Positions 30,835 to 37,955 of a stretch of 64,000 bases of DNA are shown here, in pieces. Each line of letters begins with the position of its first letter. Position 1 is the stretch's first letter. The notes under the pieces are model-generated. The model made no database searches and had not been told where the DNA came from. It was given only the letters and a program-made list of their open reading frames with translations. This DNA comes from Sipunculus nudus (Eukaryota; Annelida; Sipuncula; Golfingiida; Sipunculidae). Both the position numbers and the translations under genes were made by a program. The stretch covers positions 1,867,501 through 1,931,500 of the forward strand of contig CM049319.1 in the NCBI GenBank assembly GCA_026874595.1, written 5' to 3'.

Positions 30835-33303
30835 AATAACGCTGGAGCACAATGATGCAAATGTTCAGCTGTTGGGTTTTATAGTTCTGTAAAGTCACAG
30901 GGTAGTGAGCATTGGAAATTTGAACGCCCCACTAGAAAAAATACGCTGCATGCAGTACGCTGAGGGTGATTTGTCGGGACCTAACTTAAAAATTAATTTG
31001 TTTATTTTTGTGACAAATACATACATTATCAGAATTCATTGATAAATAGATAGTTTTTCATGATATTTTAAAATATTATCTAATTATATTTTCAGTTGCA
31101 TACTATAATATTTACTCGGGAATCACTGGTGGAGATACTGAAAAAAAAAGAAAATACATAAAAAAATGCCCTTAATTTTTTTAAAGCCGGTCGGATAACA
31201 AAGTGATACAATCAATAAAATATTCTGAATATCCGCGGGTATAAATGGCAGACAGTGTAAAGCTGAACTTTTAATTTGAATGCAGAGTCATATTACATTG
31301 TATCTTAAAACCCAAAAGGTTATTATACGCGGTTTTGATCCATCGTTCTTGTGAAATCTGATATAGTCTTACTGGAAATACCAGATTCCTTTTCTTTCCT
31401 TTTTCCTATCGATGTAACATTAAATCCCTTTCAAAGTAAAGACAAAGATCGGTTTTAAGTACCGAAAAATATTCATTATTTATAACCTTTTATACTACAC
31501 GAAAATAAAAGGTGCAGCTCTACTGATGAAACAATGAAACGGTACCAAGTAACAAGCCGGAAGCAGTTCAAGCAGATGTCCATGCACCATATCAATATCA
31601 GTATATTTCTCATGTATCAACGTCAGTATTGTTCGTATAGATTGCTGTCCGAATTAGACCATACATCTCCGTTGTTTCCAATCGTTATATCATTTTCTCA
31701 CATATAAATATACGTATATATTGATTGTATATATGCAAGAATCAGGTTTTCCTTATTTTATATTCCCACGACAAATATTTTCTCACTGCTTTTCTTTTCA
31801 TTAGCAACAGTAGCCAGGACAGGTTACAGCTGTCAAGTCTTTAGTAGTTTTACTTGCAACAACTATAACATAACACGAAACGTGGTATAAAACGTATTAC
31901 AATGCGTGGGAGGGACTTCTGTAGATTGTAGATGTTCATACTAATGGCCCGTCCAGTTAATGAGATGAATCCCTGACATTTACTTATTACTTCGCCACAA
32001 AGCCGTTGAAGAAGCTTGCGATTCTCCCTCATTCGCATGTTGGTATTTAACACTGTAGATCAAGGATGTCGATGACTGAATGACCGACGCTTTATCTGTA
32101 GTGAAATCCCCGGGAAGGACCACCAGAAGTACGCTCAGTGTTTATGTCACAGAAAAACACGCTGAGTTCAGGTAGCCGGTCCTAGGTGACGCTGACTATC
32201 GCATCGTTGTCCAATTTATTAGTCGCGTGTTGATATACTGGGTTAGACAATTTACTTCAGTCTCGCCTCAAATTTTTACATTCATTTTTGGACTGAGAAC
32301 TAGTAATTTAAAGCATATTGGCCAGTCTAAGAAAAATTACATTTCATGAAAAATTAATGTAATTTGGGTATGCAATCATTCATGATTAATTACGCTAATA
32401 TCTCTTTAATCCGACCAGTCGTTTATTATTGAAAGCGGTGATATAGCTTTCATCCAACCATTAGTTTATTTACAAACACTGTGATATCAATTTTATCCGT
32501 CTATTCATTTATTATCAGATACGGTGATATACATGTATTTTTTAATCCAACCATTAGTTTATTATCAATTACGGTGATATCTCTTTTATCCGACCATCTG
32601 CGGGGCCACCATAGAAGTGATCGTATAGTCAAACATGAAAAACCGTCTCATGCGCTTCTAGGAAACTTTGTTGAATATTAAGCAGCAATATTGTCACTGC
32701 AACATTTAATATGATGCGAGGTGCAATGTCAACAAATGGCAGTGCGTATAAGCCTTCAAATGAAGTAGTTAAATGAAATGGTATCCAGTTCAATGTAAAC
32801 AAAATAATTGCAGATGTATATTAAATGAGCACGGACATCAAAGTATTAAATTTAGCAACAGAAAAATATAGGTCATCGTAATTCAATATTGTCATGTATC
32901 TCAACAATGACTAAGGGTGTTAATGTTTTTGTAATTAATCAGAAATATTTCATTCATATAATATAATAATAAATGGAGTCAAACTTTAACACGTCTGTTA
33001 CTACTACAAAATTGTTTCATTCCTCTAGATATGTTTTTTTCAATTACATGTATTTTGTAAACAGAAGATCCAACAGAAAACTCACAATAAACATTCTAAT
33101 TATGGTATTAATACTATTATGGTAGTCCAGATTACCTCAAAAATATAACCCTTTGGTGTTACCTTTAACCAGTAGTGTGTCGATTAATCGGCTAAATCGA
33201 TTATTTGTCCATTTCTTTCAAAATCGATTTAATCGATGCATTTTTGCAAAATCAAATGAAAACGATTATGTATATACATGCAAAAATCTAATCCTGTCAG
33301 AGA
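30835..33303 (+). repeat. Inverted duplication, copy 1 (segment order A-B)
   Basis: 2469 bp. Part A (30835-31177) matches 35483-35825 in reverse complement, and part B (31173-33303) matches 35825-37955 in reverse complement. The two parts overlap here by the 5 bases TAATT. I aligned the arms by eye and saw only two substitutions in the stretches compared (near 32143 and 32226) and no net length change. Short frames at 31850-32053 and 32481-32681 are identical in both copies only because the duplication is recent. A degenerate minisatellite of about 50 bp (words TTTATCC, CATTAGTTTATTATCA, CGGTGATAT) lies at 32395-32602. I see no transposase, integrase or reverse transcriptase. Confidence 0.9.
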
Positions 33304-33567
33304 TACACGAACACAAAATGACGAACAGTACCAAACCGGACCTTGCACAGCCAACAATCGTATGAGGGCAAGTCAACCATGGATGCGAGTTTCATTATGA
33401 TGTACGTGTCAGACTGTGTACTTGGGTCAATATTTTAGGTACAAGTATGCAGCAGATTTCAAGATAAAATAGAAAATACATAAAATAATCGATTAATAAT
33501 CGATCAACAGTTGTATTTTTATTTCAATCACAATAATGATTTTAAAAACCAATTCCTACCACTAACT
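33169..33567. mobile_element. AATCGATT-rich nonautonomous repeat, hAT-like
   Basis: It begins with CAGTAGTGTGTCGATTAATC, is rich in AATCGATT words, and has a roughly inverted counterpart near 33550 (AGTGGTAGGAATTGG on the minus strand). Similar sequence occurs at 11969-12050 and 54460-54550. The duplication edge at 33303 cuts through it. Confidence 0.35.
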
Positions 33568-35482: not shown

Positions 35483-37955
35483 AATTAAGGGCATTTTTTT
35501 ATGTATTTTCTTTTTTTTTCAGTATCTCCACCAGTGATTCCCGAGTAAATATTATAGTATGCAACTGAAAATATAATTAGATAATATTTTAAAATATCAT
35601 GAAAAACTATCTATTTATCAATGAATTCTGATAATGTATGTATTTGTCACAAAAATAAACAAATTAATTTTTAAGTTAGGTCCCGACAAATCACCCTCAG
35701 CGTACTGCATGCAGCGTATTTTTTCTAGTGGGGCGTTCAAATTTCCAATGCTCACTACCCTGTGACTTTACAGAACTATAAAACCCAACAGCTGAACATT
35801 TGCATCATTGTGCTCCAGCGTTATTCTCTGACAGGATTAGATTTTTGCATGTATATACATAATCGTTTTCATTTGATTTTGCAAAAATGCATCGATTAAA
35901 TCGATTTTGAAAGAAATGGACAAATAATCGATTTAGCCGATTAATCGACACACTACTGGTTAAAGGTAACACCAAAGGGTTATATTTTTGAGGTAATCTG
36001 GACTACCATAATAGTATTAATACCATAATTAGAATGTTTATTGTGAGTTTTCTGTTGGATCTTCTGTTTACAAAATACATGTAATTGAAAAAAACATATC
36101 TAGAGGAATGAAACAATTTTGTAGTAGTAACAGACGTGTTAAAGTTTGACTCCATTTATTATTATATTATATGAATGAAATATTTCTGATTAATTACAAA
36201 AACATTAACACCCTTAGTCATTGTTGAGATACATGACAATATTGAATTACGATGACCTATATTTTTCTGTTGCTAAATTTAATACTTTGATGTCCGTGCT
36301 CATTTAATATACATCTGCAATTATTTTGTTTACATTGAACTGGATACCATTTCATTTAACTACTTCATTTGAAGGCTTATACGCACTGCCATTTGTTGAC
36401 ATTGCACCTCGCATCATATTAAATGTTGCAGTGACAATATTGCTGCTTAATATTCAACAAAGTTTCCTAGAAGCGCATGAGACGGTTTTTCATGTTTGAC
36501 TATACGATCACTTCTATGGTGGCCCCGCAGATGGTCGGATAAAAGAGATATCACCGTAATTGATAATAAACTAATGGTTGGATTAAAAAATACATGTATA
36601 TCACCGTATCTGATAATAAATGAATAGACGGATAAAATTGATATCACAGTGTTTGTAAATAAACTAATGGTTGGATGAAAGCTATATCACCGCTTTCAAT
36701 AATAAACGACTGGTCGGATTAAAGAGATATTAGCGTAATTAATCATGAATGATTGCATACCCAAATTACATTAATTTTTCATGAAATGTAATTTTTCTTA
36801 GACTGGCCAATATGCTTTAAATTACTAGTTCTCAGTCCAAAAATGAATGTAAAAATTTGAGGCGAGACTGAAGTAAATTGTCTAACCCAGTATATCAACA
36901 CGTGACTAATAAATTGGACAACGATGCGATAGTCAGCGTCACCTAGGACCGGCTACCTGAACTCAGCGTGTTTTTCTGTGACAGAAACACTGAGCGTACT
37001 TCTGGTGGTCCTTCCCGGGGATTTCACTACAGATAAAGCGTCGGTCATTCAGTCATCGACATCCTTGATCTACAGTGTTAAATACCAACATGCGAATGAG
37101 GGAGAATCGCAAGCTTCTTCAACGGCTTTGTGGCGAAGTAATAAGTAAATGTCAGGGATTCATCTCATTAACTGGACGGGCCATTAGTATGAACATCTAC
37201 AATCTACAGAAGTCCCTCCCACGCATTGTAATACGTTTTATACCACGTTTCGTGTTATGTTATAGTTGTTGCAAGTAAAACTACTAAAGACTTGACAGCT
37301 GTAACCTGTCCTGGCTACTGTTGCTAATGAAAAGAAAAGCAGTGAGAAAATATTTGTCGTGGGAATATAAAATAAGGAAAACCTGATTCTTGCATATATA
37401 CAATCAATATATACGTATATTTATATGTGAGAAAATGATATAACGATTGGAAACAACGGAGATGTATGGTCTAATTCGGACAGCAATCTATACGAACAAT
37501 ACTGACGTTGATACATGAGAAATATACTGATATTGATATGGTGCATGGACATCTGCTTGAACTGCTTCCGGCTTGTTACTTGGTACCGTTTCATTGTTTC
37601 ATCAGTAGAGCTGCACCTTTTATTTTCGTGTAGTATAAAAGGTTATAAATAATGAATATTTTTCGGTACTTAAAACCGATCTTTGTCTTTACTTTGAAAG
37701 GGATTAAATGTTACATCGATAGGAAAAAGGAAAGAAAAGGAATCTGGTATTTCCAGTAAGACTATATCAGATTTCACAAGAACGATGGATCAAAACCGCG
37801 TATAATAACCTTTTGGGTTTTAAGATACAATGTAATATGACTCTGCATTCAAATTAAAAGTTCAGCTTTACACTGTCTGCCATTTATACCCGCGGATATT
37901 CAGAATATTTTATTGATTGTATCACTTTGTTATCCGACCGGCTTTAAAAAAATTA
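35483..37955 (-). repeat. Inverted duplication, copy 2 (circularly permuted, order B-A)
   Basis: 2473 bp. Read on the minus strand from 37955 it runs B then A, whereas copy 1 on the plus strand runs A then B. The copy is flanked by AATTA on both sides (35483-35487 and 37951-37955), a word present once at the A/B joint of copy 1. The internal B/A joint at 35825 brings together the two outer ends of copy 1 with one shared base. The lengths agree exactly: 2469 plus 5 minus 1 equals 2473. Confidence 0.9.

Follow-up and report, generated by a model that had tools for sequence, protein, structure and literature searches.

The locus described here raises the question of how two near-identical copies of one segment came to lie close together in the genome of Sipunculus nudus, in opposite orientation and with their two blocks in exchanged order, and which of the copies was there first. 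The window that we analysed is a stretch of 64,000 nucleotides (GCA_026874595.1, contig CM049319.1, positions 1,867,501 to 1,931,500) from a 1.43-Gb assembly of 153 contigs, and the two copies are spaced 2.2 kb apart within it (Table 1). An original prediction had described the pair as an inverted duplication with a circularly permuted second copy, and self-comparison of the window confirms this, with both blocks aligned: on the minus strand, 31173-33303 aligns with 37955-35825 over 2,131 bp with 3 mismatches, and 30835-31177 aligns with 35825-35483 over 343 bp with 0 mismatches. The two copies are versions of a single 2,468-bp unit, which copy 2 carries in inverted and circularly permuted form, and the alignment finds the block order swapped between them, with a shared 1 bp at 35825 and a 5-bp overlap at the A/B point. 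Chance similarity is excluded by the genome search (E = 0 and 1.6e-174 for the two blocks). A plain mirror inverted duplication was considered as well and rejected on the alignment, since it requires B'-A' after A-B and the plus-strand order here is A'-B'.

Table 1. Positions in the window of the two copies, their joints and the bisected element.
Feature	Position	Strand	Basis
Copy 1, donor unit as read from the bisected element; order A-B, no recognised gene	30835..33303	+	alignment, donor test, frames
Block A of copy 1, 343 bp, no substitution relative to copy 2	30835..31177	+	alignment
Block B of copy 1, 2131 bp, 3 substitutions relative to copy 2	31173..33303	+	alignment
Copy 2, derived unit by the same reading; minus-strand order B-A (plus-strand order A'-B')	35483..37955	-	alignment
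Spacer between the copies, 2179 bp; starts with the remaining two-thirds of the hAT-like element	33304..35482		alignment
Closing joint, fusion of the outer ends of copy 1 (1 bp shared), at which the hAT-like element is cut off	35825..35825		alignment
A/B joint of the donor, putative opening point of the circle; TAATT (AATTA on the other strand)	31173..31177	+	alignment
AATTA, left end of copy 2	35483..35487		alignment
AATTA, right end of copy 2	37951..37955		alignment
Old dispersed hAT-like non-autonomous element, ~395 bp, across the right boundary of copy 1	33171..33565	+	genome search, relatives
Part of the element present in copy 2, its first 133 bp (33171-33303 of copy 1)	35825..35957	-	alignment

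With respect to the joints, the alignment agrees with the anatomy proposed earlier, a 1-bp fusion at 35825 and AATTA at both ends of copy 2. The word TAATT occurs once at the A/B point of copy 1 and recurs, as AATTA, at both ends of copy 2, which comprises one full turn of the unit plus 5 bp and covers the entire unit. The ends of the donor (copy 1, see below) are fused inside copy 2, and the ends of copy 2 are adjacent in the donor. Six 50-bp comparisons of the joint flanks gave between 7 and 19 of 50 identical positions, that is, micro-overlaps only and no extended homology; since long homology is found at none of the joints, homologous recombination is not indicated. When random joints were drawn in the window, an overlap of at least 5 bp arose in 0.7% of draws and one of at least 1 bp in 46%, so that the 5-bp overlap probably has a cause and the 1-bp closing overlap is uninformative. 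The 5-bp overlap fits microhomology and staggered opening alike and does not tell them apart. Both the opening point and the target have a GC content of 28-30% within 100 bp, and the closing ends one of 36-41% (window median, 38%).

Exact alignment of the arms, proposed as a check when the pair was first noticed, gives three substitutions where two had been noticed. These lie at copy 1/copy 2 positions 31422/37706, 32144/36984 and 32225/36903, all in block B, and amount to a divergence of 3/2473, or 0.12% (Poisson 95% interval, 0.025-0.35%). Such low divergence suggests that the duplication is recent, unless gene conversion has homogenised the arms and kept them alike.

The direction of the event, which the original prediction held could not be settled, can be read from the hAT-like element at the right boundary of copy 1. 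Copy 1 and the spacer together contain this element in full, and in copy 2 it breaks off at the closing joint after its first 133 bp. By eye, we observe short inverted ends (TAGTGG.../...CCACTA) and a degraded 8-bp target duplication around the element (33162-33169/33565-33572, 6/8 bases equal), as well as 8-bp flank duplications in relatives, for example in L018 (8/8), L026 (7/8) and L006 (7/8), which are not visible in every relative. Target duplications of 8 bp are associated with hAT elements. A genome search with 33120-33620, in which 40 of 2536 candidates were scored and the family is therefore larger than the matches listed, returned 41 matches. Two are the copies in the window itself; of the 39 non-self matches listed, 38 run across base 33303 and one is a partial piece beyond it. 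All 23 relatives compared (5 from the whole-unit search and 18 from the 33120-33620 search) align through base 33303, with an overall identity of 75-80%, and in the first 30 bases past 33303 the identical columns range from 16/31 to 25/30 across relatives (L004, 23/37; L021, 23/36).

Because this old element is whole across the boundary of copy 1 and truncated at the closing joint of copy 2, copy 1 is the donor and copy 2 the derivative, a polarity that is given by the bisected element and not by an outgroup. The opposite direction had been offered earlier, with copy 2 excised and then reinserted as copy 1, and block order alone is indeed symmetric for both directions. However, the element is complete across the right boundary of copy 1, flanked by its degraded target duplication, and is truncated in copy 2. 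This refutes copy 2 as the original, except if insertion had by chance struck the absent two-thirds of the element in exact register, a coincidence that we find scarcely credible.

Among the matches and frames covered, neither a mobile family nor a recognised gene accounts for the unit. The whole-unit search of the 1.43-Gb assembly, in which 40 of 976 candidates were scored, returned 41 matches, of which three lie in the window and the other 38 cover nothing but the embedded element (query 2333-2469), and among the matches listed there is no second genomic site for the unit apart from 33171-33303. A transposon family or mobile element was rejected, as no other copies of the unit sharing the same ends appear among these matches. 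Three weak genome matches (57-70 bp, 80-84%) fall on the stretch 35604-35671 inside block A. A gene-bearing unit was likewise rejected: 8 of its 11 stop-to-stop frames of at least 50 aa were scanned against Pfam, and none has a match above the curated cut-offs; two matches below the cut-off, eIF-5_eIF-2B (E 0.0098) and MNSV_P7B (E 0.046), were taken as chance. No tRNA or Rfam match was found in the window. The unit is apparently noncoding and not obviously a gene, and we see no function in the duplication. Block B also contains four imperfect repeats of ~43-50 bp each (32398-32597).

In the surrounding DNA, no relatives of either target flank of copy 2 (34800-35482 and 37956-38110) were found in the genome, and a further search matched nothing but the trinucleotide array on the right of copy 2. 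This TAC array (38150-38919) has related arrays on many contigs (at least 136 matches). A local search with the left flank of copy 1, from 30400, found nothing else in the window, in 200 kb around it or in 23 loci. Furthermore, a survey of 264 kb (the window plus 100 kb on each side, with overlapping tandem rows filtered out) yielded 7 pairs of at least 150 bp and at least 95% identity. Two of the 7 are the blocks of the permuted pair, and the other 5 do not combine into a second swapped-order pair within the 264 kb. The survey region also holds an inverted, near-identical and nonpermuted pair at 53309-53482/53803-53976 (174 bp, 97.7%, ~320 bp apart) and, outside the window, an inverted pair at 2063-1616/1101-653 bases to the left of its start (L038; 449 bp, 97.6%, ~515 bp apart). 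Tandem arrays occur at 55793-59178 and 60356-61356 (~121-bp unit, strong strand skew) and at 18831-20763 (~180-bp unit), and a 28-bp unit is repeated ~24 times at 40498-41177. Two frames with recognisable domains are found elsewhere in the window, a Galactosyl_T frame of 366 aa on the plus strand (48885-49985) and, on the minus strand (22374-23201), one that contains a thrombospondin type 1 domain; both are in keeping with an animal genome.

With respect to origin, the arrangement is most likely a circle-type duplication that arose by a one-off local repair or replication accident and was captured in inverted orientation 2.2 kb away, a mechanism that we infer from the joints. In a germ-line accident, a fragment with ends 30835 and 33302/33303 would have come from one chromatid or one replicated copy, and its ends would have joined with a 1-bp overlap to give a 2,468-bp circle. 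After opening at the A/B point (AATTA), this circle would have been inserted in inverted orientation where a break or a stalled fork lay 2.2 kb downstream. An AATTA of the target may have paired with that of the circle, or a 5-nt staggered opening may have been filled in. The circle model of the original prediction is thus retained as the best-supported reading, with its undecided direction replaced by copy 1 as the donor. The single crossover at a 5-bp microhomology that it proposed is possible, and staggered opening or 5-bp over-copying yields an identical sequence.

A circle accounts at the same time for the fusion of the outer ends, for the exchanged order and for the fact that the ends of copy 2 meet; without one, the start and end of copy 2 would have to fall within 5 bp of each other by coincidence (about 11/2468 = 0.45% as a simple ratio). 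Spacing of 2.2 kb in a 1.43-Gb genome is unexpected for a freely diffusing circle, which favours local replication or repair, possibly circle-free, and hints at a local process and not at the reintegration of a free circle. As an example of such a local variant, a fragment of one chromatid may close on itself and be caught by a nearby break in the sister.

The circle-free route most in need of weighing is serial template switching (FoSTeS/MMBIR), in which synthesis would enter the donor at 31173, copy to 33303, move back 2.47 kb to 30835, copy to 31177 and return to the target. The short range, the inversion and the micro-overlaps of 1 and 5 bp are all in keeping with this path, the 2.2-kb proximity would be natural for a stalled fork, and, according to Chicote et al. 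(PMC7450558), end joining and MMBIR cannot be told apart from the breakpoints alone. Nothing in template switching, however, forces the last copied base to lie within 5 bp of the first, a chance put at about 0.45% by the same simple ratio, and we regard this route as unlikely.

An identical order would also be produced if A-B had first been duplicated in tandem in the donor, the middle B-A had then been copied in inverted form and the tandem had finally collapsed to one unit by homologous recombination, which leaves no scar; this is the false-positive route described by Takahashi and Innan (PMC7188851), who use the test for an extra partial copy as their guard against it. The route needs three events and a copied length that equals the tandem period within 5 bp, and no tandem or third-copy remnant was found beside either unit in the window, where 150-bp end probes matched the two copies and otherwise stretches of at most 20 bp; we consider it highly improbable. 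An assembly artefact is more improbable still, as it has to contend with three fixed differences between the copies, with unique sequence flanking copy 2 on both sides and with joints that carry the micro-overlap expected of a real event.

Circle-type duplication is known from human and cattle, and the present case is smaller, lies closer to its donor and has every joint resolved. The example from cattle is a serial translocation of KIT by circular intermediates, said to have been described by Durkin et al. in 2012, which reportedly shares with our pair a permuted copy at a new site and a micro-overlap at the closing joint and which, unlike it, is reportedly interchromosomal, much larger and linked to a coat-colour phenotype. 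For human, Chicote et al. 2020 (PMC7450558) list 24 pairs with the flip, 16 of them characterised (22-3918 kb), with copies 0.09-58.48 Mb apart or interchromosomal and with closing and insertion joints resolved to the base in 3 of the 16, and they discuss a chromatid-fragment model of this type. Those cases resemble ours in the change of order (A-B/C-D to B-A/D-C), in nontandem placement, in having the donor ends fused in the derivative and the derivative ends adjacent in the donor, and in joints with micro-overlaps or short indels and no long homology. They differ from it in scale, since the present unit is 2.47 kb long and 2.2 kb away with every joint resolved, in the insertion overlap (5 bp here versus 1-2 bp) and in the source of direction, which is primate outgroups there and a bisected repeat here (PMC7450558).

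In addition, Takahashi and Innan 2020 (PMC7188851) describe three strong eccDNA-type cases of about 20-130 kb, two of which allow no assignment of donor and recipient, in data where events under 500 bp are undetectable. The signature and the route (closed, cut elsewhere and reintegrated) are shared with our pair. ODIRA inverted amplification (PMC10766186) is similar in making a local inverted copy through an extrachromosomal intermediate; it differs in retaining mirror order and by inference does not alone give a swapped order. A partial search of the literature found no circle-type case outside mammals.

We tentatively raise the possibility, against which more speaks than for it, that small inverted circle-type duplications within a few kb of their donor form a common, unlisted class completed in one cell cycle, in which a chromatid fragment would close on itself and be captured by a break in the cohesion-held sister. 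If such a class exists, its members would escape human catalogues, whose starting point is large segmental duplications. The usual case for circle-mediated duplication is built on human segmental duplications that are large and old and whose joints have eroded; the pair described here appears very young, with all its joints readable. Donor and derivative can be told apart here without an outgroup because the event bisected an old repeat, and a repeat that is whole at the boundary of one copy and truncated at the internal joint of the other could polarise such events in any single assembly, which could let their rate, size and distance be measured.
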